From contig JAJEKV010000003.1 of the NCBI GenBank assembly GCA_021234155.1, forward strand, positions 18,088,386-18,152,385: a stretch of DNA of 64,000 bases. The letters are read 5' to 3'. A program made the position numbers and the translations under genes. Shown piece after piece: positions 1 to 64,000 of this stretch. Position 1 is the stretch's first letter. Every line of letters starts with the position of its first letter. The DNA comes from Isoetes taiwanensis (lineage: Eukaryota; Streptophyta; Lycopodiopsida; Isoetales; Isoetaceae). The notes under the pieces were generated by a model. That model did no database searches and was not told where the DNA came from. It saw only the letters and a program-made list of their open reading frames with translations.

Positions 1-1824
1 CTGAATTTTTTAATGAGTATGACAGACCCGCTGTATAAATTCAGCAAAAGAACTTGGATGATGATGATGGGGATAACAAACAAGCTGAAACAGAGAAAGT
101 AGCATATGAGAATGCAGAACAAGAGCATGAGGCAGTTGGGGATAACAAACAAGCTGAAACTGCGCAAGTAGCACATGAAAATGCACAATAGGAGCATGAG
201 ACAGTTCAAAAGGACAGAAGAAAGAGAAGAACCGAAGCTGAAAGACTTAGAGCTGATATGCTTGACCTTGATACAGGTGCTTTTGGAAGAACTAATGCTG
301 GAACAAGTAAGAGGTTAGAACATTATGACATTAATGAGATTCTTGCTCTATTAGAACCTAGTGTGCCTAAATCTTACTGTGAAGCAACAAGCTCTAGTGA
401 TTCTAGAGAGTGGAAACTTGCCATGGATTATGAAATGCAAACCTTTCAAAGAACAGGAACTTATGAATTGGTTAAAAAACCTTTGAACAGAAACATAGTG
501 GGAAATAAATGGATATTCAAGTTAAAAGTTGGACAAAATGGTGAGCACAAATACAAAGCAAGGCTTATTGCTCAGGGATTTTTCCAAAAGAAAGGTGTTG
601 ATTATGACGAGACCTTTTCTCCCATAGTCAAATTGACTAGCATAAGAGTGCTCTTGGCATATGCAAATGCTCATAATTTACTTGTACATCATATGGATGT
701 AAGTACGGTCTTTCTAAATGCTGATCTAGAAGAAGATATATTTATGAGACAAGCACAAGGATATGAGGAAGGAGAAGACATGGTCTGGAAGCTTAATAAA
801 CCTATGTGTGGGCTAAAACAGTTTCCAAGGCAGTGGTTTATATGTAAGGACAAGTTTCTAAGAGAACATGGATTTATGAAGTTGCAAAATGATGGGAATC
901 TGTATATATTCAAACAAGACAATCAATTTTGTATTATAGCTCTCTATGTGGACGATAATATTATGGTGTCTAATCACAGAGATTGCTTAAGTTATTGTAA
1001 ACAAGTTCTCAACAACAGGTTTAGAATGACAGTTCTTGGACAGAGATCAAGAACTGAAAACATTGTGGATAACTCAAGCAAACAATATATAAGGTATGTT
1101 AGTAAGGTCTAAAATGGCCGATTGCAAAACCTGCACCCTCTCCATTAGCACGTGGCCAGAAGCTATCTTCGGAACAAAGTCCTAAGAGTGAATCTGAAAT
1201 AATGGAGATGCAAAAATATCCATACAAGGAGCTGATTGGATGTTTATTATATGTGGCAAATTGTTGTAGGCCTGATATTGCATACAATGTTAACCTCTTG
1301 AGCAGGTTTTTGAATAACCCAGGAATCCAACACTTGAAGGCAGCAAAACGAATTCTAAGATTTATTAAAGCCACACAACTACAGATTTATGTTTACAGGT
1401 AGTGATCTGAATTTAACAGCATACTCTAATGCAGACTGGGGTGGAGATTTGGATTCTAGAGAATCCACTCTAGGTTATATTCTAAAACTTGGTGGTACTT
1501 GTGTAGCTTGGAGAAGCAAAAAACAAGCGTGTATAGCCATGTCAATTGCCTGAGGGTGAGTACAATGCAGCCTCTCTGACAGCAAGGAAAATTATCTGAG
1601 TGAGAAGAATCCTGGATGAGATAGGTATCTTGAAAAGTGCCCCTACTATTCTATATGACAGTCTCAATTTCTTAGCTATAACAAGGAATCCAGTGCTCCA
1701 TGAAAGAACAAAGCACATAGAGCGACATATGGTAGAGAAAAGAAAAATCCGGGTTGAATACATAAGCACTGAAGAACAAACAACAGAGGTTTTAACAAAG
1801 ATATTACCTGTGCACAGGTTTTAG
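1..1824 (+). pseudogene. Ty1/copia pol relic (linker, RT, RNase H)
   Basis: This is the 3' half of a copia polyprotein that would copy element RNA into DNA. The open part at 258-1112 holds the RT: the block NKWIFKLK, then YKARLIAQGF, then the MDVSTVFLNA motif, and the catalytic YVDD (YVDDNIMV, about 946-969). After about 1030 the frame shifts. 1202-1402 has the conserved PYKELIGCLLYVA and RPDIAYNV blocks. RNase H continues at 1405-1824 (SNADWGGDLDS, ending before PVHRF) with stops near 1551 and 1599. Gag, protease and integrase lie outside the window. It cannot encode a working polyprotein. Confidence 0.93.
69..206 (+). repeat. 69-bp tandem duplication in copia linker
   Basis: Two direct copies of a 69-bp unit lie at 69-137 and 138-206. 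The unit equals 23 codons, so the duplication kept frame and repeats an acidic, Asn/Glu-rich peptide just upstream of the copia reverse transcriptase. The second copy has an in-frame TAG near 188. It sits in the linker between integrase and RT, which tolerates length variation. Confidence 0.85.
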
Positions 1825-5640: not shown

Positions 5641-6222
5641 AGGCCAAGAGGGACGTCCTGGAAGATTTAAAATGGGGAGTCATGATCTAAGAATTGAAAA
5701 AGATAGATGGAGGAAAGTAGAAAGGGAGAACCGAATATGCAGAATCTGTAACACAGGAAGAGTGGAGGACGAGAACCACCTGCTTAACGAATGTACAGTG
5801 TATGAAGACATCAGAAACAAGTACATGAGTATAGGATGGGGGCAGCCAGTACATATCCTAATGGCAAGAGTAGACACAATAAAAGACCTGGCAGATGCAA
5901 TCCAGGAGATGATAACTAAACATCAGGAGATACACAAAGAAAGAGGGCTTAGAATATGAATCACTAGAGAGGTGAGGCATTGGAGCCCACAAAAGCTCAG
6001 CTAAAATCTGATGATAGCGACGCATCTTCGCACGGACCATGATGCCGATTATAAGCGAGGTGCCAGTATTAATAGAAACTAAGAAAAGCCCTCAGAAAGG
6101 GCTACAACATATCAGTGTGTTGCGCTAGTAGGACCCCTTTTGGGAGCTCGCCCATGCTACATCAGTCCAGGGGCCTCAGGGCACTAGGGGCAATAATTCT
6201 ATTCTATTCTATTTTATTCTAA
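5641..6222 (+). pseudogene. LINE A C-terminus, 3' UTR and tail
   Basis: Resumption of LINE A after LINE B. The segment RFKMGSHDLRIEKDRW...CRICNTGRVEDENHLLNEC matches, motif by motif, the C-terminal Cys/His region of LINE B (GSHKLAVETGRW...CQSCKTGDIEDEQ). The ORF stops at 5959. A roughly 235-bp 3' UTR follows and ends in a (ATTCT)n microsatellite tail at about 6195-6222, the mark of the 3' end of many plant LINEs. Confidence 0.85.
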
Positions 6223-6880
6223 ATCTTGATACTCTAAAATGCATATCAGCAAGTTTTGTTGAAGTTATGATCTTGGACAAGTTTCAGCAAGTTTTGTTCA
6301 TGAATTTAGTCAACAAGTTTTCTTTAAGAATTTTATACTAAGTTTTCTGAAGTTCAAAGGTTCAGTAAGTTCAAAGCATTTTCGAAATTCTCATCTTTAA
6401 AAGTTCAAGCCTTTCGATGAACTTGCTTTGTCCAAATTGGGTTTCAATCTGAGGAAGTGTCCATTGTTTTAAGTTTGTTTGGTTTCTGATTGCTTGTTCT
6501 ATGTTTCACTTGCTTCCATACTTCTGGGCAAAAGTATGTTGGTGGGGTGCAAAAATAGGCATCCGAACACATGCTAACAGCACTCATATAACACCCCATA
6601 TGGCAGTTTGTTTAGGGTGTTACTGGTACTAGCACATGGTAATTAGGTAATTAAAAGAAACATGTAACAATTCCAATTAGTGACAAGTGGAATACTATGA
6701 TAGAATAGTAGGTCCAGGGTGCTGATCTAAGTGCTGGGGTCGCATTTTGTTGTACCCCACCAGCATAGTTTTGCCCTTCTGAGTAAACCAAGGCCCATGA
6801 GCATATATGATGTGGATGTAATGAGTAACCTCTGTCTTACCCCAGCTGTATGTATGCATGTGTAAACTCCCTGACCACCA
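6223..6880. other. No recognisable gene
   Basis: AT-rich spacer. The phrase CAAGTTTTGTT recurs near 6250 and 6285. No ORF or motif supports a gene. Confidence 0.5.
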
Positions 6881-26494: not shown

Positions 26495-29400
26495 ATGGAT
26501 ACGGAAGGGAGCATTCTGGGTGCACCTCCACAAGGCCTTGCAAAAAAATTGCGATCAGCTGTTTCAGGAGCAGAATGGCAACAGGCTTACATTGCAGCAA
26601 TGACCAGAGGCAATCCCAAGCTCCTCTTGACGCAATGTCCACTTTTCCATGGCTTCACCCCGTCTCAGCTCCCATTTGTTGTCCAGAAACTGGGACCTGA
26701 TCAGCTTCAGGAAGGTGAAGTTGTCCAATATGAAGGTCGCATTCGATTGGCTCTTCCGGTAACTTTGTAACTTTTCTGTGTTGAAAGCTCGTTCTTTCAA
26801 AACAAAAAAAAAAACTTTTTGCGTTGAAGGTGTTTGCAATGGTGTCTTTTAATAATGATCGTACTAGGCAACGCAGCTAGCTGATAAGAGATTGATATTA
26901 GTTGTTGTTTGTCGTTGTCTTTTTCGCGGGGACAGAATGGAGATGAAACTTGGGGAGTTGGCAGGGCTCGTACAAAGAAGGAAGCAGAACGCTTTGCCTC
27001 CATCGATGCTATAAAACAGTTGAACGTCTGTTCAAGTCTCAGTTTCTGTTTCGCTAATACTCTTTAAGCTAACAGTCTGACTTGGCCTCGTAGGAGAGAG
27101 GACTGCTAGTTGCGAAGGCTAAACATACAGAGGCATCTGCCACGTCTGAATGGGGAACGAACCCAAAGAACTTGTTGACTGCAAATTCTGTGTTTAAAGA
27201 TAAATGGTGCACAAGACTTCCTCAGCCACTGCCAATTACTTTAAGTTCTACAGGGCCAGATCATTCAAAGGTTTCATCCATTCTGTGCCGTATATGCAGT
27301 TTGTTGATAATTCAATTTTTACATTTGTAAATGGTCTGTGCAGCTGTTTATTGCGGAATTGCCTGTCCCTCTTAGCGATAATGAGTTGTTTGTAGCTGTT
27401 GGAAGAGGCAGCAGCAAGGCGGAAGCAGAACGGAAATGTTGTATATGTGCGTGTGAAAGGCTTCATGAAGAAGGTTTATTACAGAAGCCAAGAACACTTG
27501 CTATTACTTGTCCTGATATCTTTGGCATGACATTGCAAGTTCAGCAGGTAGCTGCAATAATAGATGTTTTTTGTTTCTTGTGCTTCAGTGGAGTTAGGTT
27601 TTGACATCCTCCTTCAATTAATAAAGGCATGTTTCATTTTATAGCAAAACGAGGATCCAACTGTTGTTGATCTACAACAAAATGAACTTGCCATGATAGA
27701 GCATATTCTGCAGACAGTGCTTATTGAGAAAATATCAGAGCCAGCAACCACCGCTGGCACAGAAATTCTCCCGCATGATGCGAATGTAATGAATGGGGCT
27801 ACGGACGAAGTTGCTGCAACAAATGCTATGTTACACACAAATGCAAAACACAGGATGTCATCTCCTGAATTCTCTGCACAACTTCGAGCACGCCAATCCC
27901 TGCCTGCCTGGATAAGGCGTGAAGAAATATTGGATGTAATCAGGAATAATCCCGTGACCCTTTTGACAGGTGAAACGGGCTCTGGAAAGACAACACAGGT
28001 TTGCATCCAACTTGGAGACTGGAAAGAACAGTATTTGTTCACCGCATGATTTTTGGATGGGATGTGTATTTATTAGGTTCCACAATTTATACTGGAAGAG
28101 GCTGAACTACAAGGTTTTGGTGCAGACGTCCATATTTTGGTGACCCAGCCTAGAAGAATTGCAGCGATGAGGTAGTTTCTTTACAACTCAAGTACATTGT
28201 GATTAAATTTTAAGGCACTTTCGTTAAGTACCAGGAGGAAGGACCAGGTAAAAAGGATTGGAAATTATTCAACCATGATGTTTGGGTTCTTTGTTTGCAC
28301 CTCATAGAGACTCTGCACATGGGGTCCATATAAAGCTGCAAATTTCCGCACTGTATCAAATAGGAGCAGCTTTTAGTGAACGTTCTGGAAGTGGATTTGG
28401 AAGCAGTTTTTTAATTGATGTATTTTTTAGCAAGTCTACATTGGGCAGCATTTCACAACTTAAAGGAGGACCCGAGTCTTATGCATTTTTCTTTCCCTCC
28501 GGATGTTTAAGCATCACATGCATTAGAGGGTTAGGCCTTTCAGCTCCCCTATAAGATCTATAGCACCTTGAAGCACCACTTTACTCATCATATCCATTGC
28601 ATTACTTCTGTGAATCGCATGCTCGTGCAAAACAGTTGTAGCCATTGCCGTTCCATACCTTTCCCTTTTATGGCCGTCCACTACGATCTTAGGCGTTTTC
28701 CTTTTGCTTTACCTTCACTGTCCACCTTATTTGTTTATTGTCCAGAGAAGAGAAAGCTTTTAGTTTCTGTTGCTTCTTCATTCCACAGTTTTATTACCTT
28801 TGTAGATGTTAAATACAGGATAGCTTGCTCTAACATGATGATGATGTCTGGACCATATTATGCGACGTCATTGCCTCTGACTTAAGAGTGCCATGTCATC
28901 ATATGCCTCTTATAAAAGTCAGACATTAGTTCACTTTTTCTCTACACTACTTTCCATTTTGGTTCAATCAGTCTGAGCATCCTAGTGGTTTGTGTTGTCA
29001 TAATTTTCTGTTCACCAGGGAAGATATCTCAGTAGACCATTCCTTGAAGCATTTGGGTATCAAGGTTTCACCATTCTTCTGCAAAAGGAAAAGATGTAAG
29101 AACACTGTTTTTTCAAAGAAATCATCAATAATCTTTAAATACCGTTTTCTTCCACATTCAGATTGGAGGAAGGATGGGTTGGTTTTGTCCAGATTAGCAT
29201 GATATCACTCGATAACTGCTCTGTCAAGTTTTTTCAGTAGGATCTTGGAAGATTTGGCCAGTTTTCTGAAGATTTTTTCAGGTTTTGAAGGTGAATCAGT
29301 ATATTAAATCAAGAAGATCGATCTAAACAGGAACTATTGTCAATATTATCATGTGAGATCTCAAGAATCATGGGATTATTCGACCCATGGAAATTGGATG

Positions 29401-38400: not shown

Positions 38401-41108
38401 CCGTCGCTTCGCCTGATTATCATGAGTGCAACTATTAACGTGGACCTTTTTACTAGGTAATTAATCTGTTTGGTGGTTTTTGTTTGGACTAAGTGTTTTC
38501 TGCACATGATCCTAATGGTCTGCGTCTGCAGATATTTTGTCGGATGTGCACACTTGAACATATCTGGGAAGTCTTTTCCTGTAGAAGTGTGCTTCCTGGA
38601 GGATATCCAATCTTTCCTTGAACGACATGGTGTTCCAGCATCGGCAGTGGAAAATATTCAAACTTCTGATGATGACGAAGTCGATATTGATCTTGTGTCT
38701 AACGTTATATTATCTGTCTCGAGTTGCCTTCCCAAAAGTGATGGTGCCATATTGTGCTTTCTGCCTGTGAGTCTTTACGAGCATAAAGCAAGGAGCTTTT
38801 ATAATCAATAAATGTGCTCTCCCATGTCATTTAATTTGATTGTTTTAATCAGGGTTGGGATGCCATATTAAAAGTGAGAGACCGCTTGAGAAAGCTAGAG
38901 GGGACCAGAAAATCTTTGATGATCGTTCCTCTTCATTCTTTACTACCAAGTGATGAACAAAGACTTGCATTCTCTCATTCTCCTGTTGGCCTGAGGAAGG
39001 TGCGTTGCAGAAACTGGTCAGTGTATAAGCATTTTGCTCAATTCCTGGTATAAATGGTTCCCCTTTTCTGTTATCAGGTGGTTCTGTCAACGAATATAGC
39101 AGAGACAAGTATCACAATCGATGATATCATATGTGTTATTGACTCAGGGAAAATGAAAGAGAAGAAGCACGAGCCATCTCGTAATATGGCAACTTTGAGG
39201 ATGCAGGTAGTTGATAAAAAGCACCTTTACCTGCTGTTGGAAATTTTAATCTTGAGCATGTATGTAATCTTTCACGCAGTGGATATCACAAGCCAGTGCA
39301 CGCCAACGACAGGGCAGAGCGGGCCGTGTCCAAGCAGGGTTTTGTTTCCGCCTTTACACAAAAGAGGTAGCTCAGCTTTTATTATATTGCATAGGAAAGT
39401 TAGTTTTCTAATGACTAGAAGACATAGAAAACATACGTTTCTAATGACTAAGAAGACATAGAAAACATACGTGTTTTGCTTTACCAAGAATAATTCAACT
39501 TTCTATGACTCGAGAATCATAACCGTATCATTAATGGGAATTCATTTTTAATGGAGACTTAAATATTCTAACGATTTGGTTTTGTGTGACTCTGATTATA
39601 GATCTAACCATACAGTCATTGTGCATGTGACTTTCTTGCATGCTTGCCATTTCTTCGAAGGATCTTATGTGTGCGTTTCATGAAGTTTGTTAAGTATGAC
39701 CTTTATGAAACATGTCTGCAGCCAAGTATTGTGGGAGTATTAGTAAGAAGCCTTTAATTGTCTCTCTTTCTTAACGTTGTTATGGATGTTTCTGAATGCA
39801 ATGGCGGCCAAATTTACCAGACATATCAGAGAATGGATGAGCATCACAAGCCCGAAATACAACGCATACCACTTGAAGAGTTGTGCTTGCAAGTGAAAGC
39901 TTTTGCTCTGGCTAATTTGGTAATTATATTTTGTAAGTTGGGTCCTGCTAGAAAATACTTTTTCTCATAATTATTCACCCCTACAGGTTAGCATTAGAAG
40001 ATACCATCAGGGTAATGAAATAGCACTTGCTTCAATAGGAGGTCTTACTGATGACGTTGCTGTATTCCTTTCAAAGGCATTAGAACCACCTCAAGCTGTT
40101 GCCGTGGAAACTGCTATTCACGTGCTCCAGCAGATGGGTGCTATGGATGAGTGGCAGAATTTGACACCAATAGGAAGAACCTTGGCAAAGCTGAATGTAC
40201 ACCCTCGGTATGGGAAAATGCTAATGTACGGGGCTCTGTTAGGTTGCTTAGAACCAATTTTGACCATTGCAGCAGCTGCATGTTACAAGGACCCCTTTGC
40301 TGTATCCTTTAATAAGAATGGAAAGGCCGGCAAAACAAGGCAGAAGTTTGCTGTGCTTTTTGCATATGGCAGTGATCATCTATCTCTGGTCACCACCTTT
40401 GAGCAATGGATGGCAGCACATGAAGTTGGGGAAGGACATTTATTTTGTGAAAAAAACTCTCTCTCCCATGTTGTTATGAAGCTTATTGCAGGTACAAGGG
40501 AGCAGTTTAGGTTGGCACTGAAGGAAGCAGGATTCTTAGTTGGTGAGAGCAGGAATGCTAGCGCGGAGGCCAATGCACATCTTGCAAGATGTGTCCTTAT
40601 GGCTGGACTGTGCCCAAATATTGCAAAGTCTGAAATTTGCAAACAATCCAAGGGTGCAAAGCGTTCAACTTACCGCTGGACATTAGGATTTCGTGTCCAC
40701 AATGGTCGTGTACTCATGCATCCTGGTTCTATAGTGCAGGAAAAAGAGCTTGATGCAGGTTCACATCACTTCCTTGTTTTTGATGAGAGGGTCCAAAGTG
40801 TCCAGTATTTTGCTCAAGGATGCACACTTGTGCCATCTCTTGCCATCATTCTTTTCGGGTGGAAACTAACTGAATGCAGCAACTGTACAACCAGTCGAAT
40901 GTTACTAGAAGTTAATGACTGGTTGAAGTTTGATGTAGATAGGGAAGCTGGCGCACTCTTATTACAGCTTCACAGAACCTTTAATGATGTATTGTATAAA
41001 TGGATAGCTACAAACCAGCGTGCTGAGGCTGAAGTTAAGCTTGTGAATGTGGTTATTACCTTGTTGGTATCAGCAAGCACCCGAATGCTTCTTGGGACAG
41101 GTCAATGA
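26495..41108 (+). CDS. DHX9/MLE-like DEAH RNA helicase with two dsRBDs
   Basis: ATP-dependent RNA/RNP helicase. Exons: 26495-26758, 26936-27025, 27094-27270, 27344-27547, 27645-27998, 28077-28171, 37570-37711, 38290-38456, 38532-38766, 38853-38999, 39078-39206, 39280-39366, 39821-39919, 39987-41108. All phases fit, giving 1103 aa. Domains: dsRBD1 about 55-122 ([18 protein letters not shown]), dsRBD2 about 165-230 ([12 protein letters not shown]), Walker [11 protein letters not shown] ending at 363, [14 protein letters not shown] 456-459, SAT 488-490, QRQGRAGR 677-684, then HA2 and OB-fold. RFES-type [17 protein letters not shown] and [10 protein letters not shown] resemble animal RHA/DHX9 rather than DHX36. 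The donor after exon 2 (GTCTGT) is weak, and exon 13 could instead start at 39830. It appears intact; the 9.4-kb intron 6 is full of retroelements. Confidence 0.92.
29380..30480 (+). pseudogene. Copia gag and RNase H scraps
   Basis: ORF 29387-29656 resembles a copia gag ([21 protein letters not shown], then [18 protein letters not shown]). A decayed zinc knuckle ([16 protein letters not shown]) lies near 29950. RNase H scraps follow near 30190-30260 ([20 protein letters not shown]) and 30400-30470 ([11 protein letters not shown]). Protease, integrase and RT are missing between them. Confidence 0.65.
30935..31130. repeat. Copia LTR-like repeat units
   Basis: Two units starting TGTTAG (30935 and 31015) share GTGTCTCTT, CTGATGTGTCATGTGGATG and a following TAGTCAGT with AGCTTA. 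The second unit contains a TATA-like GCCTATATAA. The same unit recurs twice at 31853-32045, so these are probably LTR fragments of the intron's copia family. Confidence 0.65.
31445..31807 (+). pseudogene. Copia RNase H fragment
   Basis: 120 codons with copia RNase H blocks: [19 protein letters not shown], then [27 protein letters not shown], then [11 protein letters not shown] short gap and a purine-rich GGATGG precede the LTR-like units at 31853, the expected order for a copia 3' end. Confidence 0.85.
31853..32045. repeat. Probable copia 3' LTR fragment, two internal units
   Basis: Units at 31853 and 31964 both begin TGTTAGTACTTAG and share the CTGATGTG(T/G)CATG(T/C) core; the second has CTATATAAGC. 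They match the units at 30935 and 31015. It follows RNase H directly, so it is likely the 3' LTR of that fragment. Confidence 0.65.
32180..33060 (-). pseudogene. Antisense copia integrase/linker relic
   Basis: On the minus strand, about 32870-32650 gives integrase words in broken frames ([15 protein letters not shown] and then HKNRTFWN, the AERKNRT block). 32462-32184 gives the linker [12 protein letters not shown]. Orientation is opposite to the copia pieces on either side, so it is a separate insertion. Confidence 0.6.
33843..34094 (+). repeat. ~132-bp duplication containing the copia protease active site
   Basis: The block from the ATTGACATTGACATT run through GATGATGTCTGGCTCATTG and TTCTGGAGCC occurs twice (active-site words at 33933 and 34065). 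Both copies encode WLIDSGA. Only the second goes on to TKHLVG as in a normal protease. Confidence 0.85.
34846..34900 (+). repeat. 27-bp tandem duplication in copia integrase
   Basis: ATACTTGTCTCATGACTTCG is present twice in a row and introduces a TAA between the copies of YLSHDFD. Confidence 0.8.
35420..35900 (-). pseudogene. Antisense Ty3/gypsy integrase fragment
   Basis: On the minus strand, 35881-35531 encodes the zinc-binding end (HQCDVCQ) and the first catalytic block ([12 protein letters not shown], then [13 protein letters not shown]). ORF 35538-35329 continues with [17 protein letters not shown], the second Asp block. Between them GTGAAC-type repeats (about 35506-35570) disrupt the frame. 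It replaces the RT start of the sense copia element. Confidence 0.85.
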
Positions 41109-50222: not shown

Positions 50223-50549
50223 GGCCACATGCTTGCCAAAATACCCGTCTCTCATCCTATACGACTCCTCTCAGATTTGTACGTATTTTTCTGGGAGGAG
50301 AGGAGAGAAGGTTGTCTCTCGAGGTCTAACAGCGTCCTTTAGGCCTCAATTTTTGGTTTCCCGCCAGAGAGCTACTTCATCGAATCATTCCAGTAGGTCA
50401 AGTTTTTGTGGGATAATTCCCCTCCAATTTTGAATCGGCCTCCAAAATATGGGATATTTCTTCTCCTGTTCCTGCTGGTAGGTAAGCTTTGTGGGATATT
50501 TCGTTTGCTGTGTTCTTTGCATAGGGTTCCATTTGTCGGCCGCTCTATC

Positions 50550-51906
50550 ATGGATCCAGTGATTCTCGGAATGATTGCCATGCTGTTGCGTGCTCTTACA
50601 ATCGGACTCGCATTCCAAAGGTTCTGTTTGCAGCTTCTTGAGCTAAACAAGCTCGAAGACCCAATGAATCTATTCGATGACGATGACTTGCAAGAAAATG
50701 ACAGTCTGTTCTTCTGTGCTGCCTCATCTTTGATGTTAGCTGGATCATGCCGGGTTAGAAGGCCACCTAGAAGATTTTGGATTGCTCTGAGACAAAGAAC
50801 ACAATGGGATAATATAGATAATCACGCATGGAATTGTATAGCTTCTTTTGAAGATGATATGTGGCATCAATTTTACAGAATTAAGAGGGCCAGCTTTGAG
50901 AGACTAGTCGGGCTTGTTGTCCCTTATTTGATTAGGCCAGGGGTTAAGGTTAGGCCCCTTGTTGATCCCAGGAAAGCTGTAGCCATGGTTCTTTACTTTC
51001 TGGCATACGGTGACATGCCTTTGCATGTGGGTCAGAGATTCTATGTTGGAAAAGCTACAGTGCAGAAATATACTAAAAAAATAACACTAGTGTTGGCCTC
51101 GAAGACAATGCTTTACAAAAGGTTTGTAGCCATGCCTTCTGGAGCAAGACTAACTCAATGTATAAAAGAATTTCATGATGCAACAGGATTGCCAAATGTG
51201 TATGGTGCTGTTGATGGGTCCCATATCTTTTTATGGAGGAAACCCAAGAAGAGTGACAAAGCCTGATGACTATTACAGTCGACACAAAAGGCACTCATGT
51301 CTTCTGCAGGGTATTGTCACACACATCAGGCTTTTTATAAATGTCAGTGTGACAAGAACTGGATCAGTCCATGACTCAAATCAGTTCAAGAAGAGTTCCA
51401 TATACAACAAAATTGCATCCAAACTAATCTTGAAAGAACCAGTTGTAACCTTGAGTGGCAGAAAATTGAAGAAAGGCCAACCCACTGAAGACCAAATCCA
51501 GGTTAACATTCCTCCACTTTTACTTGGTGATTCTGCCTATGCTGCCAGACCCTTCCTCTTGAAAGTTTTTCCACAGAATCATGGACCTTATGGCAAGTTT
51601 AATAAAAGGATTTGCAGGGGTAGAGTTTGTGTGGAAAATGGGTTCGGGATTGTGAAAGAGAAATTCAGAATTCTTAAACATCTGCCTGTGCATGTTGGCA
51701 AGGCATCCAAGATTATACATGCTGCTTGTGTGCTTTGGAACTTCTGTATTATGGAAGACATGGGATGGGACATGTTGCCTCTCGAAGAAGAGCCTGATCC
51801 AGTTTATTACTATGAGACTGAAGCTATGAACAGAAGTCTAAAGAAACAAGGAGATCAGATGAGGCATGTGATGTTTGAGAACTTGGATGGGCATGTGCTG
51901 TTGTAA
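50550..51906 (+). pseudogene. PIF/Harbinger transposase, one frameshift
   Basis: DDE transposase of the HARBI1 type, about 452 codons across two frames. Start ATG 50550 (MDPVILGMIAMLL). An N-terminal helix-turn-helix region (FERLVGLVVPYLI) is followed by YFLAYGDMPLHVGQRF. The catalytic triad is present: first Asp in YGAVDGSH, second Asp in LLGDSAYAARPF, Glu in CVENGFGIVKEKFR. One extra A in AAA near 51258 shifts the frame: the sequence would otherwise read DKPDDYYSRHK. Everything else is open to TAA at 51904. The second Harbinger protein (Myb-like) and TIRs were not found. It decayed recently, or a sequence error is possible. Confidence 0.9.
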
Positions 51907-52809: not shown

Positions 52810-53088
52810 ATGGATTTCTCGCCTTCATCAGTTCACCACATCGAGGCGATCAAGTGCTCAATGAGCCACTCCGATCTTGTTGGTTGCCTAGACAGGCATC
52901 TTCTTCTTGATCCCTACCTGCGAAGAAAAGCTTTGGGCGCTGAGATTCGTTGCCCTGCGTCAATTCGTGTTATGATCCATCTGATTTGGCTTCCTGAGCG
53001 CATGTCAGAGCATCTGATCTGCGTAGCAGAGTCGAGTAGTTACCGAATAGAGCATCAATATCATCGTGTGTGTGACCCACCATCATGA
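52810..53088 (+). CDS. Small unrecognised protein, member 2, 3' end replaced
   Basis: ORF of 92 codons. The first about 67 (MDFSPSSVHHIEAIKC... to LIWLPERMSE, ending about 53010) are a diverged copy of small gene 1. After that the reading frame runs into sequence that is antisense to the DUF7869-like ORF, so the last about 25 codons are chimeric and the original stop is lost. The tandem period is about 522 bp. Function unknown. Confidence 0.5.
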   Translation: MDFSPSSVHHIEAIKCSMSHSDLVGCLDRHLLLDPYLRRKALGAEIRCPASIRVMIHLIWLPERMSEHLICVAESSSYRIEHQYHRVCDPPS

Positions 53089-53633
53089 ACCCGAGCTGTA
53101 TTTGCTCAAAAACACCCTGTGAAACAAGATAGGAAAGGTAAGAGAAAAGATATCTATTTTTATTCTGGCCAGCACAATTGTCTAATTGCAAGTAGAGCCT
53201 CCTGAAGAGCTTTTTATGCTGCACCGGTGGTAATGGTGGGGCCACAAAAGCAATGCATGTGTTGTTGACCTTTTTGGTCTTCAAAGCAGTAGTGTTTAAT
53301 ATTGTAGCACCCCATTCGCATTCCGGAAGGGATGACTCCCTCAAATTGCCCCAGTTGTCCAAAGAGGCATCCTCCATAGTTTTCAATATATGGTTCAATG
53401 ACCCAATATGAAAATTAGAGTCATCTTTCCAAAGGTCAAGTGAGAAATGCCCCAAGGCACCTATGCCATGGCCATGCACCAGTGCACCAGTCAAACTTAC
53501 TTTCAAACGCTCTCCCCTCCACACTGACTTGACTAACTTCTCAAGTCTAGGCAACATTGTCTTATTCTGGTCCATTTTGTCGTGTATGATTGTGAGTGCA
53601 TGCTCCGGAGAACGGTGTGAAAGAGCTCTCCAT
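52970..53633 (-). pseudogene. DUF7869-like protein fragment
   Basis: Minus-strand ORF (53575-52970, coding sense back to about 53615). It holds the strongly patterned block LYLQLDNCAGQNKNRYLFSY and then GFMMVGHTHDDIDALFG, which I associate with DUF7869, an RNase-H-like domain found in multicopy, probably transposon-borne proteins. The recurring D, N, H and D residues look like a metal-dependent active site. The upstream end is cut by the gypsy LTR at 53634; the downstream end runs into small gene 2. The family name is from memory and needs a profile search. Confidence 0.65.
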
Positions 53634-55261
53634 TGTGACGTTCCAAGTATTTATACGGTATAAGTATAAATATGTTGACACGTCACCAGGAATACATACG
53701 CCACATGGGGTATGGGAACCTAGGTGGTTCACTTAAAAAGGATTAAATTAGCTATGCTAATTTAATTATTAACAATAATAACCTATAACTAAGGAACTAA
53801 CATTTAAAAACCATAATTAAGTTAATTATGGTTTGGGAAGGCGCCACGTGGCCACCCTCGATTGGTTAGCATGATAATGCTAATTGGGGTCAATAGGGTG
53901 GATCACCACCCCCATATCAGCCACAACTCACCTTGAGCAAAGGGAGCCACCTTTGTGACCGAAATGAGCCACCTTGAGCAATTGGGCGCCACCCTTCTTG
54001 CACAATGTGAACACCCGCACCAAGAAGATGGAGATCCCCAACGACAATGGGTCGAAACAAAACACGTGGGTGGCTAGTGTAGTTGTGAATTCTAGGATAA
54101 AGCCCCACAGGGCACCCTTGGGTTGCTTTGGTCTATTCTCTCTCGTGTTACTTTCGTAGGAACTAACCCTTGATTGTAAAGGTAGGTTCTCTATGTATTT
54201 CGATTCTGGTTTTGCTTGTAATGGATGGACCGGTGGTTGTTAGCCTAGTGTTACTCAAAAATGGGGAATTAAGGGGGTAGAGACCTCGTGAGGCTATTTA
54301 TTGTAGTATGCTCCTAGATAGAGCCCCGTATTATCCCGCTAAATGCGGCTGTGCACAAGAGCCCACCGGGTCATAGATGCTATGGTACCGGGCTTAGCAC
54401 CGCATAAGGAACACAAGTGGTGAAGTGGAGGTGGGGTCTTGCACCGAACATAAAAGGCTCCCCGGACTCCTATAGCGAGCTAGACCTCGATGGCCGGCCA
54501 CGAGGGGCCGTATGGGTCCGACACTCCCCCCGGTGGGAAGGTGTGACCCGTATGGGGCACCTTGCACTTTGAGTAGATTTAGGGCGCAGTAAGTCGGCAC
54601 GGATGCGGGGGTCGCCGATGCGCACGCATTCTCTAGCTCGCCCATGGAGCCACCGTGGATTCCGAAGGGGACGCTTCCCGACCTGCCTCATCGCACCAGG
54701 ACTTCATGAACCCCGGAGTAGGCTCGGCCAGTGGGTGATGCCTCGAGCCCGCGTCTCCCAAGGCTATAGCGACGCCATAGCGTGAATTGACCCATCCGCA
54801 AGTGTGCAATGGAGGGGCGGATGGAGTGGACAACCCTAGCCAATGTTCTATGCCAGCCAACGCCATGTCAAGATTCTCATGCGTTGATCTCTTGAGGCCT
54901 AGCCGCCGACCGATCCTCACCGAGAGTCCGAACCGGGTAGAACCATGGGTTTGGGGTGTTTTCTTAGGTTTAGATGCATATTCTTTGCCGTTGGTATTTG
55001 GATGGATATGCCACCCCTCGAGGTGGTTATTTATATGTGATTTATGCTGTGTGCTAACCCTTGTATTCACGCTTCCGCGACGTAGGAGCCCCATTGAAGG
55101 CGTGGGCCGAATGACCCCTTCGTGTCCTTCTTTCGGGCATCATATTATAGATGGCCCGGAATAGACGGAGGGTTTCCCGCCATGGCGAAGTTGGTCGCCA
55201 TGGGAGGGAAAGTCCCCGTATGTATACGTCCGAGGGTCGTATATGTTCAGGGAGCGTCACA
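53634..55261 (+). repeat. 5' LTR, 1628 bp
   Basis: Begins TGTGACGTTCC and ends GGAGCGTCACA, so its termini form an 11-bp inverted repeat with one mismatch. It ends one base before the PBS. The same start (TGTGACGCTCC) is found at 63939. Confidence 0.92.
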
Positions 55262-55262
55262 G

Positions 55263-55275
55263 TGGTATCAGAGCC
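55263..55275 (+). promoter_or_regulatory. Primer-binding site, initiator tRNA-Met
   Basis: TGGTATCAGAGCC, the standard plant PBS complementary to the 3' end of initiator tRNA-Met, one base after the LTR. Confidence 0.95.
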
Positions 55276-55895: not shown

Positions 55896-57080
55896 ATGGC
55901 GAGAACCAAGGGCACTAAGAGCTTCTCAAGCTGCGATGTTGTCCAGCTCTTCTGTTTGCTTGGGGACTACATCGGAGATACAGAAGAAGGGCCAGAGAAG
56001 ACTGAACTCCTCCTAGATCAACTAGTGTTACGATTCATGGAGGGGGATCGGATACCATACCCGGTTTTCCATTTGACAGAACGGTTCTTGCTAAAGCTCA
56101 ACGCTGAAGGGATGACTTATACCTTGGTGGAGCAGGAGGACCAAACCCTAACCTTAGTTAAATACTACCCTGCGGATATGGCCCCAGATGCTGCTGGAGC
56201 CGAGGCTCAGAGAGTAGCCACCGACACAATGGCCATGGCCCACGAGGAAGATCTTAGGGAGGCAGCTCGTGCAGACCCGGCTACAAGGGGTCATGAGTAT
56301 CAGTATTTGGGACGGGGTAGAGCCATAAGCAGGGGCCACAGTTTTGTAATACCCCCATACTACTACGATGAGGATGCCCAGTTCTTTATCTGGGAAGATG
56401 TTAACCCCTCGTTTCCTGAGGAAGAACTGATGGATGTGGAACTTGACATGGCGGCCCGACCGGACCGATATCTTGCAGAGATCCGACGACGGACGGCCGT
56501 ACGCTTGTTAAGGGAGCAGCACGCTGAGCAGCAAGCAGCTCGGATACTAGTAGCCGAGACGGATACTCGGGTTAGGGAGCCCCCTAACCGTTTTTACCGG
56601 CGGAAGAGAAAGACCACCAGCCCAACTCGCCTGGGGTCACAATACAAGACCCAGCTCGAGGCGATGGGTGGGGTTGCGAAGAAGAGAGGGGATACCCGAA
56701 GGGACACCTTAGTTGAGCGAGCCCGACATTCAGCCACAGGAGGGAAGAGACTTCCTCTTGTTCCCCCTCCTCGACCGAGGAAGCCCCACCGGTTTAGACC
56801 TGGGACGGTGGCCCTGCGGGAAATCCGCAAGTATCAGAAGTCTGCGGAGCTTCTCATTAGGAAGTTGCCGTTCCAGCGTCTTGTTCGGGAAATCGCGCAG
56901 GAGTTTAAGACTGACCTCCGGTTCCAGACGCATGCCATCTTGGCCCTACAGGAGGCGGCTGAGGATTATCTGGTTGCGCTTCTTGGCGACGCGAACCTCT
57001 GTGCTATACATGCTAAGCGTGTGACCATCATGCCCAAGGATTTGGCCTTGGCGCGTAGGATTCGTGGGGAGAGGCCTTAA
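55896..57080 (+). CDS. Histone H3-fusion ORF inside a gypsy element
   Basis: Uninterrupted 394-codon ORF. Residues 296-394 ([15 protein letters not shown] to ARRIRGERP) align without gaps to histone H3 37-135. I count about 12 changes from plant H3.3 (T58A, D77E, S86T, V89I, A98D, G102A, F104L, E105G, T107A, I124L, Q125A, A135P). His87 and Leu90 are H3.3-type; K56, K79, C110, H113, R116 and D123 are kept. The ORF begins MARTKGTKS, like the H3 tail ARTKQTARKS, and residues 276-284 (ARHSATGGK) resemble H3 26-36. So about 265 unrelated residues seem inserted in the tail; they include acidic (173-195) and very basic (about 228-270) stretches. It could deposit into nucleosomes, mimic H3, or bind integrase or chromodomain. 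Its role is unknown. Confidence 0.93.
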
Positions 57081-57397: not shown

Positions 57398-58443
57398 ATG
57401 GACCATACCCAAATCGGCAATGGGTACCACGATGGAGAGCGATGGGATCCTGAAGTCCCCTTTGAGCAGCTCCATCCTTATTTGTTACAAGAGGTGGATC
57501 TTATCGCCAATATGGAGACCCATCCCGACTATGCCGATTTCTTGCAGTTTTACATTCAAGAGATGGTGCCCCAAAGCACACTCAGTGATGGCGATCCTCC
57601 TCGCCTTTACCTCCACAGATCCGTACTTATGCAGATGCTTGGGGATGACAAACATGCCGAGGATACACTTAGGGTATTCAGCCGTGCTCGCATGCTCCTA
57701 TCCTCCGGTTTTGGGACGCAATGAGACCTATTTTGAGGTCCGCTTTGCATTGGCCATTCTTATGGACCAATATGTGGAGTTCGATTACACTCCATTGGAA
57801 AAAGGGAAGTTACCTATTGCTGATGATCCAGAGGAGGATGAGCGCATCAGCCATACAGATTTTGTTCGATGGAAGCAGCTCGCCACCAACCGCCTCGTTA
57901 TGCGAGGCCCGCGACCTGGCCGCAAGCTTCAAGGGTTGGATGCCCTTCCCCAATCATGCACAATGGTCGAGTATCTCCTCCTCGATGATATCATGTGGGC
58001 ATATCACGCCATCGCTAACCTTCCACACATGACCAAGGACCTCGCCCCCTGCACGAGCTCGGCCGAGTATTGTCGATGACTTCCTTGACTTCTCCCTTCC
58101 CCGATTATCCCGCGAAGTCCAACGGCTACTTGGGTTTCACCCAGAAGACCTTGCACCTGTTGAGACCTTGCTACAGCTAAGGCAATTGATGCTCCAAGAT
58201 CCCCCTTCTCCGCCACCTGAGGATGCTTTTGCTGCTATGGGACCTCATGTCCCTAATATTAACGAGGTGGCCATACCAATGGAGGAGGATGAACAGGGAG
58301 AAGAGTTGTGCGATAATCAAGACCATCTGAAAGAAGATAAGGAAGAGGCCTATGCGGAGCAGGTACATCTCAATCTTGAAAGGGAGATAGCGACTAGCAG
58401 AGATCCTGACGTAGTAGCTTTTTCCAATGTAATAGTGTTTTGA
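57398..58443 (+). pseudogene. Second extra ORF, unknown, frameshifted
   Basis: Starts MDHTQIGNGYHDGERWD. The frame moves at about 57715 (to NETYFEVRFALAILMDQYVEF) and again at about 58050 (to IVDDFLDFSLPRLSREVQRL), then stays open to 58443. Summed, it would be about 345 aa, acidic at the C-terminus (PMEEDEQGEELC). No motif recognised: not gag, protease, histone or a known nucleic-acid fold by eye. It occupies the place where some gypsy elements carry an additional 5' ORF. Confidence 0.55.
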
Positions 58444-58589
58444 CTTTTAATCGAAAGCTTTTCTCTTGTCTTTTCGTATTCACTCTTTCTTCGATACTAC
58501 ACAAATGATCTTGTTATGGGACTTCATGTTGTTCTCTTCTTGTGAGACTTGATGTAACTCTGCTTATAATCTTCTTCTGCTCAATATAG

Positions 58590-59700
58590 ACGGTGCACGC
58601 AACGCCGCCTGGCAGACACCCTCGAATGCCAGCCGGTTAACTCCTGAGCAGGAACTCCTGCTGATGAAAAGGCAACTAGTTGAGTTGCGTACTTATGTGT
58701 GAATACCAACCCACCGCAAAGATGCCTGGGAGGATGGACCGGAGTTACCTCCATCGACAAGTCCCCACCACAAAGAACCTTCTCTACCTGAATCCGATCC
58801 CCGCCTCAGACATCAAGAGGCACCGCCACAAACGCCATCGAGGTTCCTCTAAGGACAAGGCCACATCTTCTCGCCCGGGCGACTTCGAGTCCTCTGACTC
58901 GTCTATGTCATCCGGTGGCCATGCGCATCGTCGGGATAAGGAGTACCGAAAAACAGTTGATACCGCCATAACCAGCATATGGAAGAATAGGAAATTGGCT
59001 CAATTTGATGGAAAATCTAGAGGGGGGCTGAATGCAGAGTCCTGGCTCGACGAGATGAAGGAATTTGGAAAATCCTATGGCATGACTGAAAAGGATACAG
59101 GAAAGGTTGCCACCACAAACCTTACCGGAGCTGCCCGTATTTGGTGGAAGGGCTATGCCGGAGCCAAACATCTGGACAGGAGTAGATGCAACTTCAGAAA
59201 GTTTGCCAAGGCCTTCAAATCGCATTATGTGCCTCGTGCACATAAATGCCAACAGATCCGACTTTCTACAGTTGGAGCGAAAGAGTATGTCCGCATGTGC
59301 TTACACGGATGAGTTTATGCGCCTGAGACTGTATGTACCTGGAATGAATGAGAAAATGGCAGTGGAGGGCTATATTGAGGGTTTGGCACCATCGATTAAA
59401 CGGATGGTTAAGGCCATCGACCAAATCGATTCGGCCGAGGCTAAAGCATTGAGCCTCGAGGAGGACATACCAAGGAATCGATCCGCCAGCGTCCTGCTCC
59501 TTACTCGCAGCCCGCGGCGTCCACACCTTACAAACCCCGCTCTCCAAGTCCGGGGCCCTCTCGTAAACTCTTACGGTCGCCAGAGAAGAAAGTCGCTTTT
59601 AGCACGCCGGATAAGCGTAACAATGCCGGTAAGGAAGTTCAAACCTCTTACCCATTCCTAAAGAGGCGGGAGAACAACCGCTACGGATAAGGCATGTTAC
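58590..59700 (+). pseudogene. Gypsy gag
   Basis: Coat/nucleocapsid precursor in two frames. 58680-59312 contains the Retrotrans_gag core: KLAQFDGKSRGGLNAESWLDEM is followed by TNLTGAARIWWKGY and the AFKSHYVPRA region. 59107-59661 continues with EFMRLRLYVPGMNEKMAVEGYIEGL. A frameshift lies near 59270. A degraded zinc-knuckle-like CMRPDTSCNCPY is near 59700. Confidence 0.88.
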
Positions 59701-59879
59701 AGTGTATGAGGCCCGACACTTCATGCAATTGCCCATATGTTACCCAGTGACGCCTACCGCCATGGCCGAATTCGGATCGACGATATTGAGTCAACATTAC
59801 CTCCGACGAGGGCGCCCCGAGTACATTCACGGTGCGTTTCATATTCTTGCAGCTATAGAAAACCGCAATGCTGAAAGTC

Positions 59880-60110
59880 AACTGTTGTCATTTCCACCAT
59901 AGGCCAAGTAGACAAGAAAGCCTTTTGTAATTCTTATGGATACACGGGGAGTACACATAATTTTGCTTCTCCTAGAATGGCCCAGGTCCTACAACCGAAA
60001 CCCTAAGGTCACGACCGAGGCCCATCACTTTAGCCCGATGGTAAGGTTAGACATACTCATGGTCGCCGATCAACCTTAAGATGCACGATTGCCAGCGCAC
60101 CAGTTGCTAT
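59880..60110 (+). pseudogene. Gypsy protease remnant
   Basis: Broken frames with the retropepsin active-site region recognisable as LMDTRG..HI (about 59935), where intact relatives have MDTGAS-H. Downstream HHFSPMVRLDILMVADQ fits the protease C-terminal half. Not functional. Confidence 0.55.
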
Positions 60111-60275
60111 GGGTGCCGAAAGTTAATGGATATTGGCAAATACGACCTCATTGTTGGAATGGAATTCTTAGCATCTCGCAAAAAGCCAACATAGATCAGC
60201 GAGAAGAGAGAAGTTACCTTCAACGCAGCTAATGGAGCCCGCGTAACTATAAAAGGTGAACCATTCAACCCTATC

Positions 60276-61780
60276 ATGCAGTCTATGTCCATTCGACAGT
60301 TAGATAAAGCTATACGCAAGCAAAAGCTCCTCTGCGTTATTAGACTTGCTTCCATTGAGTCAGATGCTAAGCAAAACCAAGTAATCAACACCTTGCCACG
60401 GGGGATTGCCAGTATTCTCCATGAATTTAGCGATCTTTTCCCAGACGAGATCCAGAAGCTTCCTTCTTTTAGAGGGGTAGAATGTGAGATAGCTTTAGAG
60501 CCAGGTACTAAACCCACCAGCAAGGCCCCGTACCGTATGAGTCCCCCAGAGTTGGCAGAGCTTAAGAAGCAACTTCAAGAGCTACTAAACCTAGGTTTTA
60601 TTCGACCTAGCGTTTCGCCCTTTGGTGCCCCTATTCTTTTTGTAAAGAAAAAGGACGGCTCCTTGAGAATGTGTATTGATTATCGGCAACTCAACAAGCA
60701 TACCATCAAAAATCGCTATGCTTTGCCGAGAGCAGATGATCTAATGGATCAGTTGCAAGGGGCCAAATATTTTTCAAAGATTGACCTTCGCTCGGGATAT
60801 CATCAGATAAGGATTAAAGAGGAGGACATCCATAAATCTGCTTTTCGCACTAGATATGGGCATTATGAGTTTACCGTTATGCCTTTCGGATTAACTAATG
60901 CCCCCGCAACGTTTATGCGGTTAATGAACGATGTTTTCCGACAATACTTGGATGATTTTGTTGTCATTTTCTTTGACGACATTCTCATCTATAGCAAGAC
61001 TCTAGAAGAGCATGAGAAACATCTTAAATTGGCCCTACAAAAGTTAAGACGTCATCAGCTTTTTGCCAAGTTCTCTAAGTGCAAGTTTGCCACTCCAAAG
61101 GTTGACTATTTGGGCCATATCATTTCTGCAGAGGGAATTGCTTCTGAGATCCAAAGAAAAATAGAGGCCGTAAGGGAATGGCCTATTCCAGAAAATGTCT
61201 CCGAGGTCCGAAGTTTCTTGGGGCTAGCAGGATATTACCGAAAATTTGTAAAGGATTTTGCAAAGATTGCAGTCCCTCTTACAAATCTGACCAAGCATGA
61301 GAAGGTAAAGGATTGGATGGAGCACTGGAAGACTAAGGTTCAGGGAAGTTTCCAGCAGCTTAAAGATGCCTTAACCTCAGCACCCGTTCTCACGCTGTCC
61401 GATCCCGATAAGGATAAACTAGTGGCCACGATGCCGATAAAATCGCCAATCGGTGGGGTTCTAATGCGAGAGGGAGGGTTATTGCTTATGATTCAAAGAA
61501 GATGAACGAGACGAACAAATATATCCTACCCATGACCAGGAATTGCTAGTCGTTGTTCAAGGCTTTAATATGGAGACACTACCTCCTTGGTAGAAGGTTC
61601 CAGTTGGACACAGATCACCAAAGTCTCCGATATTTGACCACCCAACCCAATCTCAACCTCCGTCAGAGGAGATGGATGGAATTTCTTGAAGAATATGATT
61701 TTGAGATCATGTATAAGCCCAGAAAGCACAATGTGGTTGCGGATGCATTATCACGCCATCCCTTGGTAACCCAACCCATT
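60276..61780 (+). pseudogene. Gypsy reverse transcriptase-RNase H
   Basis: 409-codon open RT (60276-61505): [15 protein letters not shown], then [19 protein letters not shown], then [30 protein letters not shown], and the active site [10 protein letters not shown] (second Asp pair intact). The RT domain is complete. RNase H breaks after [13 protein letters not shown]: its frame shifts near 61430, 61480 and 61530, then continues at 61553 with WRHYLLGRRFQLDTDHQSLRYL and KHNVVADALSR. RNase H would be inactive here. Confidence 0.94.
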
Positions 61781-62560
61781 GTAATGCGATTTCGACACTC
61801 ACAAGTGAGTTTGGTAAATGAGATAGAACAAACTTTAGCCACCGATCCCGAGTTCTATGAAATTTGGAGTAGTCTAAATAAGGAGGCACGCATTACGGAT
61901 AAAGAACGTGGCGCTTCCGGTCATATAGGAAAGAGGGCAATTTGTTGTATCACAAGGACAAGTTGTGTGTACCTCATACTTCCGGTGCGTAAGTTAATCC
62001 TCCATGACACGCACAACAGCCCTATAGCCGGACATGCCGGTTTTATGAAGACCTACTTTAAAATCCGCTCCGCTTATTTTGGCCTTCGATGAAGAAGGAC
62101 ATTGCCGTACATTAAGCGATGTCGGGTATGTCGCCAGACCAAGGCGAACAATTAAGGACTCGGTGAGAATTGCAACCTTTGGATGTGCCCAACGCTAAGT
62201 GGGAAGTGATAACCATGGATTTTATAGTGGGCCTTCCACGCATTCTCTCGTGGATATGATCGTTAATGGTCGGTGGGGTCGACAAATTGTCAAAAATGGC
62301 TCATTTCTTGCCATGTCGCACCACGGACACCGCCTTTGATATTTGCTTCGCTTTTTGCAAAAGAGATCTTCGGGGTTGCACGGAATGCCACGGGTCATTG
62401 TATCCGACAGATCCCAAATTTGTAAGTGCATTTTGGAAAGATTTCTTCACCACCATACAAACCAAGCTTGCTATGAGTACGACTTATCATCCTCGGGACG
62501 GATGGTCAAACAGAAGGCACCAACCGTGATCATAGAGGATATGCTACGGTTATGTGTGGA
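61780..62560 (+). pseudogene. Gypsy integrase
   Basis: HHCC zinc end: NSPIAGHAGFMKTYFKIRSAYF then CRVCRQTKA (about 62010-62145). Core blocks in shifting frames: MDFIVGLP (about 62216), VDKLSKMAHFLPCRT (62278), VSDR...FVSAFWKDFF (about 62400-62450) and STTYHPR then GWSNRR (62476). Stops and frameshifts make it inactive. Confidence 0.9.
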
Positions 62561-63323
62561 GTAAGCAATCCCAATGGGCTGACTATATTTATCTAGTAGA
62601 GTTTGCCTATAACAGTATGAAACAGGAGTCTTCCAGAATGTCTCCTTTCATGATAAATTATGGTTATCAATGCCTTACTCCTGACACATGGCACAACCCC
62701 GTGTCGAAAGTGGAGGTTTCTCAACAACTCCTCCTGGAGATGCAAGCTTTGGTCGAGGAAGTACGTGGTTACTTGCTAGCTGCACGCAAATGTCAAAAAG
62801 AGTGTAGCAGATAAGCACGGGACCCCCACGAGTCTTCCAGTGGGTGAATCGGTTTTGGCTTAAGATTAAGGTAAAACAAGCCAAGCTTAAAATTGGTAAC
62901 TGCAAGAAGTTGGCACCCAGATGGGCTGGACCGTTCAAAATCACTGAACGTATTGGGGAGCAAGCATATCGCCTGGACTTGCCACCCCGCTTAAAGATCC
63001 ACAAGGTTTTTCATGTGAGTCTTCTAAAGCAGCACACCCCTGATCCAGAGGAGGTTTTGGAAACCCCAACCCTCCTGGAAATGACAGAGGAGCAGCTAGA
63101 GATAGTACCTGAAGCTCTTCTTGATCAAGCTTATAAACAGACCAGGAGGACTCAAATGCTACAATACTTGGTCAAGTGGAAACACTTGACAAAGGAGGAT
63201 GCTACGCGGGTGATGCAAACGGATCTTGAGAAGCACTACCCGGATTTCATGCGCGCGAATCTCAAGGTCGCACCATCAACGATGCTATCAACCCCACTCC
63301 GGGCAGTAAGCTTGAAGACTTGA
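62554..63323 (+). pseudogene. Integrase C-terminus with chromodomain-like tail
   Basis: 62554-62814 has WADYIYLVEFAYNSMKQESS, the end of the core. 62844-63323 has LAPRWAGPFKITERIGEQAYRLDLP and KIHKVFHVSLLK (GPF-type module). The tail is EALLDQAYKQTRRTQMLQYLVKWKHLTKEDAT...LEKHYPDF, the layout of a chromovirus chromodomain. The usual TWE aromatic is replaced (DATRV), so the methyl-lysine cage looks damaged. Chromodomains of this type steer integration to methylated H3, notable beside the H3-fusion ORF. Confidence 0.85.
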
Positions 63324-63938: not shown

Positions 63939-64000
63939 TGTGACGCTCCAAGTATTTATACGGTATAAGTATAAATATGTTGACACGCCACCAGGATACA
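63939..64000 (+). repeat. 3' LTR start (cut by window end)
   Basis: 62 bp matching the start of the 5' LTR at 53634 with a few differences (GTT to GCT, CGTCACC to CGCCACC, AGGAATAC to AGGATAC). These differences indicate that the insertion is not brand new. Confidence 0.93.

Follow-up and report, generated by a model that had tools for sequence, protein, structure and literature searches.

Plant LTR retrotransposons with a captured ORF beside gag and pol are already known in kind, including in the Ty3/gypsy group. The nearest analogue of the element described here is a set of orchid Ty3/gypsy elements in which a captured host domain, an AlkB-like 2-ODD, forms an extra ORF (PMC9289625). That ORF was kept while subfamilies diverged, as the H3 ORF of this report was kept through its lineages; it encodes an RNA demethylase domain, whereas the Isoetes ORF encodes a histone. 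The same study screened 121 angiosperm genomes and found 15 unusual domains, and no histone domain is among those discussed in the relevant section (PMC9289625). Plant LTR retrotransposons with additional sense ORFs (aORFs) beside gag-pol have likewise been described (PMC7264820). Most described aORFs are situated downstream of pol, ahead of the 3′ LTR, and they include env-like ones and ones of unknown role, in contrast to the Isoetes ORF, which lies before gag and encodes an H3. Chromoviruses, including the Tcn1-like elements of non-seed plants, are Ty3/gypsy elements with a chromodomain-like integrase end, to which the below-cut-off Chromo match of the element studied here may correspond; a legend refers to an additional ORF of unknown function, and the passages on these chromoviruses mention no histone ORF such as that in Isoetes (PMC2864245). 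Their chromodomains are described as reading histone marks (PMC9289625, PMC2864245).

Selfish elements that encode core histones are likewise known among giant DNA viruses, and some of the viral histones are reported to form nucleosome-like particles (PMC11500106, PMC9145170, PMC11222145). Giant viruses carry several histones or histone repeats, whereas the Isoetes retroelement carries a single H3 with an unrelated N-terminal part fused to it. Judged by titles and the starts of abstracts in a library of open-access papers, no retrotransposon-encoded histone was found, and a captured core histone under selection is, to our knowledge, without precedent in retroelements. Gypsy elements make up 10.7% of the Isoetes taiwanensis assembly (PMC8566536), and neither the I. 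taiwanensis genome paper (PMC8566536) nor that on Isoetes sinensis (PMC10541799) uses the word histone in its main text. The locus analyzed here lies in a 64,000-nt stretch of I. taiwanensis contig JAJEKV010000003.1, which we call the window.

Organization of the Element

The window holds, except for most of the 3′ LTR, a Ty3/gypsy element of ∼11.9 kb (Table 1), of which both ends are present, as seen from the continuation of the 3′ LTR beyond the window and from TCCAT on both flanks. The LTRs form a TG...CA pair with a short target-site duplication (TSD), and they are adjoined by a polypurine tract (PPT) and by a primer binding site (PBS) that we take to be the complement of the tRNA-iMet 3′ end. 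Pfam identified pieces of gag, reverse transcriptase (RT), RNase H, and integrase in this order in the window copy and a protease (RVP_2) in another copy, L023, giving the Ty3/gypsy order of gag, protease, RT, and RNase H before integrase. The gag matches of the window copy begin at 58577 or 58680, and RT begins at 60276. As in the original prediction, an intact 394-codon ORF (ORF1) lies between the PBS and gag of this element; it reads from ATG to stop at exactly the coordinates in Table 1, and PBS, gag, and LTRs agree with this placement.

Table 1. Features of the window element, in window coordinates
Feature	Position	Strand	Remark
Left copy of 5-bp TSD, TCCAT	53629..53633	.	Right copy beyond the window
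5′ LTR (TG...CA), 1,628 bp	53634..55261	+	92.3% identity to 3′ LTR continued in L029
PBS TGGTATCAGAGCC	55263..55275	+	Exact 12-mer upstream of ORF1 in 13/20 further (fetched) copies
ORF1, H3 fusion protein, 394 aa, intact	55896..57080	+	
ORF1 codons 1–7, MARTKGT, cf. H3 N terminus MARTKQT	55896..55916	+	45 starts compared
N-terminal part, lineage-variable, ∼290 residues plus basic, proline-rich linker	55917..56780	+	No Pfam family above cut-off
H3 core, H3 residues 37–135	56781..57077	+	Pfam, phmmer
ORF2 remains, three frames, broken	57413..58491	+	No Pfam family
gag (capsid) and following part, broken	58577..59956	+	Pfam
Pre-RT region and RT (RT ORF 60276–61505)	59997..61505	+	Pfam
RNase H and integrase start	61553..62092	+	Pfam
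Integrase remains in shifted frames	62260..62811	+	Read by eye
SH3-like C-terminal part of integrase with chromodomain-like end	62844..63323	+	SH3_Tf2-1, 3e-21; Chromo, 3.7e-5
PPT GGAGGGGAGAA	63928..63938	+	Motif also precedes the 3′ LTR in the three other copies where this LTR was found
3′ LTR start, cut by window end	63939..64000	+	Continues to window-equivalent 65572

ORF2, gag, and pol of the window copy are split over several frames; ORF1 is intact. The identity of its two LTRs was measured over 1,658 columns with 73 mismatches and 41 gap openings. Some of these indels may be assembly errors, in which case some of the frame breaks would be doubtful too. The Chromo match at the integrase end, in this decayed copy, scored 24.0 bits, under the cut-off of 25.1. 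Ogre/Tat elements have an extra ORF before gag and no chromodomain; the extra ORF of the window element has this position, and its chromodomain-like end, a match below cut-off, may set it apart from them.

ORF1 Ends in a Histone H3 Core

The H3 assignment made from the sequence alone was confirmed by profile search: Pfam Histone (PF00125) matched ORF1 with E = 2.1e-41 and 141 bits (cut-off 26.4). A phmmer search against solved structures returned H3.3 (E = 2e-51), with residues 296–393 of ORF1 aligned on the H3 core free of gaps. From this ungapped alignment, ORF1 residues 296–394 correspond to H3 37–135, so that the predicted gap-free match of the C-terminal 99 residues holds. It may even understate the likeness, as an H3-like start is also seen at the N terminus in several lineages. 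The element cores are identical to two host H3 proteins at 79–87 of 99 residues. This gap-free identity to canonical host H3 rules out a CENH3, a histone with a diverged core and a longer loop 1. Compared with host H3.1, H3.3, and CENH3, the element H3 has most of its tail replaced by ∼290 residues and carries six fixed core differences.

Single-sequence AlphaFold models of ORF1 had a pLDDT of 38.9, and of 59.5 for the first 96 residues (low confidence), and no Protein Data Bank fold was found at E ≤ 0.001. We found no H4-like ORF in the element pieces scanned. No relatives elsewhere appeared in phage records at E ≤ 1e-5 or among 22 pattern hits in viral contigs. The prokaryote genomes gave one match, of 22 residues, on a bacterial MAG contig that is perhaps a eukaryotic contaminant.

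Copies in the Genome

We searched the genome from which the window comes (1,658,258,908 bases in 1,110 contigs). At least 144 matches were obtained with full ORF1 as the query, for which 105 of the 10,245 first-look candidates were scored. A canonical H3 query, with 150 of 9,022 candidates scored, gave at least 15 host-type H3 matches (96–98% identity over residues 1–136) and at least 135 element-type cores (71–86%). Merging both queries yielded at least 219 distinct element-type loci, whole or partial, on 97 contigs, 20 of them common to both. An open frame of at least 390 codons without an internal stop was found at no fewer than 49 of the 135 element-type cores listed (51 loci minus 2 with an internal TAG). 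Many element copies are broken.

Twenty further copies were fetched for their long open ORFs, and intactness in this set is therefore no estimate for the family. Besides the PBS 12-mer (Table 1), gag matches downstream of ORF1 were present in 16 of them; the same ORF is thus found between PBS and gag in many copies, against the one-off insertion that would have refuted the original prediction. Both LTRs were sought in five copies (window, L018, L022, L015, and L023), and four proved complete, with LTR pairs of 92.3, 94.9, 95.4, and 92.8% identity and TSDs of TCCAT, CCAAG, TAAGG, and CCGGC. The three other complete elements measure ∼13.1 kb each, as worked out by hand from their places; no 3′ LTR turned up in the stretch obtained for L023.

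A query with the window copy's RT ORF gave at least 102 matches (102 of 35,559 candidates scored). At least 23 of these 102 have an H3 core among the listed matches 0.5–12 kb upstream, 19 of them at 4.4–5.6 kb. A less biased sample consisted of 6 of the 79 RT matches without a listed H3 core, for which ∼5 kb upstream was read. ORF1 with its H3 core was present in five of the six: as a long open frame in L053 and L055, broken before the core in L050, frameshifted in L051, and reduced to the last third or so in L054. The sixth, L052, had no ORF1, ORF2, or ORF3 in the ∼5 kb read. Most copies sampled therefore carry the extra ORF, as in elements of the aORF type. Loci found by the N-terminal part alone gave a similar picture, with an H3 match in the 1.6 kb read at 9 of 12; the core was nearly whole in four (L060, L062, L063, and L068) and partial or damaged in five, and L065, L070, and L071 had no H3 match in that interval. 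Together, the RT-copy and N-terminal-query samples indicate that the N-terminal part and the H3 core usually occur together.

Several loci have starts such as MARTKST, MALTKST, MAHTKGT, and MACTKST (L060–L062, L066, L069, and L070), which suggests lineages beyond the five grouped below.

Lineages and Selection

Thirty full-length ORFs were grouped by eye into lineages A (7, including the window copy), B (5), C (16), D (1), and E (1). Left out of this set were, from the 28 loci L001–L028, L002 (the same place as L009), L027 (a longer ORF), and L003–L008 (broken ORF), and, from L037–L048, L043 and L046, each with a break within the sequence obtained. The other four lineages are 34–40% identical to the window copy in the N-terminal part and 80–92% identical in the H3 core. 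Across eight representatives, 63% of core positions are invariant vs. 3–20% in other stretches.

As judged from codon comparisons, both the core and the N-terminal part are under purifying selection. Median dN/dS (Nei–Gojobori) was 0.045, 0.049, and 0.043 for the core in lineages A, B, and C and 0.176, 0.129, and 0.120 for the N-terminal part, taking unsaturated pairs only (21 of 21 in A, 8 and 9 of 10 in B, and 120 of 120 in C). Core values for single pairs reached 0.20 (A), 0.08 (B), and 0.97 (C). The yardstick values for gag and RT, window copy against others, were mostly 0.05–0.2 and up to 0.37. The H3 core is thus about as constrained as the enzymes that the element needs, and transposing copies must have kept H3 for a long time. 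Between lineages, median silent divergence lay beyond saturation in 9 of 10 pairs. These results support the view that selection has maintained an H3 of its own in this retrotransposon lineage.

At 68 of the 99 core positions, the host state is found in at least 29 of 30 copies. Differences from four host H3 proteins are fixed at positions 86, 89, 102, 105, 107, and 135, including T107A in all 30 copies. At position 77, lineages A, B, D, and E mostly have E as in the host, and lineage C mostly has Q.

Origin of the Core and Loss of the Tail

In a tree with four host H3 proteins and three typed reference cores, the element cores form one clade beside these sequences (support 100/98); 4 of 26 inner branches of the core tree are well supported. 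A single capture of a host H3 gene is the simplest account. Position 87 is H or F across elements, with H in lineages A and E as in the host H3.3-type L033. The core sequences point to a plant H3 as the source, perhaps an H3.3-like one. The host genes L030–L033 are uninterrupted, full-length H3 genes, of which at least 15 are listed in the genome; three of the four fetched have A31, Y41, and L90, and L033 is H3.3-like (T31 and H87). We also considered L034–L036, whose matches start at H3 residues 3, 12, and 11, as tail-bearing intermediates. They proved to be decayed copies that resemble lineage C in sequence and lack an H3 tail.

The start of ORF1 may retain traces of the H3 N terminus. Among 45 ORF1 starts, MARTKGT occurs in 9 and MARTKST in 1. 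After the initial M, K stands fourth in 42, T third in 35, R second in 18, and Q fifth in none of the 45. The commonest start, MAITKSA (10 of 45), is also that of the commonest lineage in the sample, and the start of lineage E matches H3 at one of six residues. A random start would match H3 at five of six residues after M with a probability of 3e-6, for a test conceived after the sequence had been seen and with 12 of the 45 starts coming from a MARTK-type query. From this low probability, we think that the original H3 start was itself kept and that the ∼290 residues were inserted into, or grew within, the tail. When the first 20 residues were compared with the H3 tail, 2–12 of 1,000 shuffles did as well for four of eight representatives and 77–487 for the other four.

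The rest of the tail has left less. The ORF1 alignment contains no convincing counterpart of tail lysines 9–27, and at position 36, lineages A, B, and C have R, and lineages D and E have K. An H3 tail with K4, K9, K14, K27, and K36 is thus lacking, with a K4-like start in several lineages only. The 50-residue linker resembled the H3 tail at below 5% of shuffles in one of eight representatives. Because the linker is basic and resembles H3 28–34 in some copies, a likeness that is only suggestive, the lost tail may have been rebuilt in part.

Possible Roles of the Element H3

From these sequences, we infer a mechanism that acts on chromatin. In a single ancient event, a Ty3/gypsy lineage would have captured a host H3 gene, which became its own first long ORF. 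H3 works with H4, and the ORF1 protein would pair with host H4, enter the nucleus via host histone chaperones, and be laid on element DNA, either cDNA or a new insertion. In plants, silent retrotransposons bear H3K9 methylation. Nucleosomes or tetrasomes formed with the ORF1 protein would have an ARTK-like start in several lineages and be without K9 and K27; with the tail that holds these lysines missing, no silencing marks could be set there. The faster-evolving ∼290-residue part could serve as an element-specific tether or effector. This account, in which one old capture gave rise to an element-specific H3 variant that sits with host H4 on element DNA and escapes K9/K27 marks, is the one that we tentatively favor, at somewhat short of an even chance. 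A slightly more doubtful proposition is that such nucleosomes, with an ARTK-like start and no K9 or K27, label element DNA or protect it from host silencing, the faster-evolving N-terminal part fitting them to an element protein.

If this proposition is true, the element carries a selfish histone of a kind for which we found no description in retrotransposons. The family also places a further class of genetic parasite with a core histone beside the giant DNA viruses. Plants silence retrotransposons partly via H3-tail marks, which lends interest to a tail-poor element H3. An H3 that a family has kept, without most of its tail, for long enough to saturate silent sites allows a direct test of whether mobile elements can build or hijack chromatin, perhaps so as to spread or evade silencing. 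It also offers a natural experiment on the parts of H3 that still count when the tail is gone.

The strongest competitor, although we regard it as unlikely, is that the H3 core acts as a ticket into chaperone or chromatin-assembly complexes. It would bring the preintegration complex to the nucleus or to replicating chromatin and thereby direct integration, stable nucleosomes not being the point. The strong conservation of the core and its fixed changes at 86, 89, 102, 105, and 107 would fit such a role (we take 87–90 to be the chaperone-specifying patch of H3 variants), and Gag or integrase could be the binding partner of the large, lineage-specific N-terminal part. However, positions 63, 72, 83, and 116, presumably H3 DNA contacts, retain the host state in 29 or all 30 of the copies, which goes beyond the needs of a tether.

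A conserved DNA-binding core would also suit a protein that condenses the RNA or cDNA of the element in the virus-like particle, alone or together with H4, by analogy with giant-virus histones, which package viral DNA, and no other long ORF comes between the PBS and ORF1. We consider this reading quite improbable: gag of L023 has a capsid domain and zinc-knuckle matches, the latter under the curated cut-offs, and H3, which binds DNA poorly without H4, would need H4 for good binding. To a similar degree, we doubt that the protein enters host chromatin broadly, dilutes H3K9/K27 marks, and derepresses many elements in trans. A canonical-like core without the tail lysines would be suited to this; the cost to the host speaks against it, and the sequence does not separate host from element DNA as the target.

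A captured host fragment carried along without function could explain the many broken copies and the lack of ORF1 in one of six RT copies read upstream. It is very improbable given core medians of 0.043–0.049 for dN/dS, silent saturation in 9 of 10 lineage pairs, retention in five lineages, and presence in the other five RT copies. An artifact or isolated event, whether fortuitous likeness, an assembly error, or an insertion into a host H3 gene, could be argued from the many indels, some perhaps assembly errors, between the LTRs of the window copy. It has a negligible probability and is refuted, as is a one-off insertion of host DNA, by the Pfam score (E = 2e-41), the at least 219 loci on 97 contigs, the TSDs around four complete copies, the clade apart from host H3, and ORF1 in five of six RT copies.

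ORF2, ORF3, and Neighboring Sequences

Between the H3 ORF and gag lies ORF2 (∼480 aa), which was matched in 19 of the 20 fetched copies (L009–L028). ORF3 (∼166 aa) was found in 13 of the 20, at ∼6000–6530 of several oriented loci (e.g., L018 and L023); it was not found in the window copy or in the 7 others, including L010, L011, and L025. In L025, gag-pol follows directly after the H3 ORF, with neither ORF2 nor ORF3. We rejected both ORFs as further histones: neither matched a Pfam family, and the single solved-structure match of ORF2 had E = 0.89. No link among the ORF1 parts, ORF2, and ORF3 was detected by hhalign. In lineage-C copies, ORF3 begins directly after TTGCAG, which resembles a 3′ splice site, so the downstream ORFs may come from spliced RNA.

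When the window copy was compared with lineage-C copies, silent divergence in RT was 0.3–0.9 among the comparisons listed, over short stretches of 63–116 codons, and ORF1 silent divergence between lineages A and C was saturated in most pairs. From these figures, pol may have been exchanged between lineages by recombination.

Elsewhere in the window, an ORF at 52970–53575 (−) matches Pfam DUF7869 (E = 2.3e-36), and begins at a distance of 58 bp from the 5′ LTR; the element inserted next to or within this other gene, which is perhaps mobile too. Two overlapping ORFs at 50406–51906 (+) resemble, on inspection by eye, a PIF/Harbinger-type transposase interrupted by a single frameshift. Read in the same way, 27693–28049 and 39054–41108 (+) appear to be exons of a DEAH-type RNA helicase with very long introns, and an ORF at 258–1112 (+) appears to be a Copia reverse transcriptase fragment.
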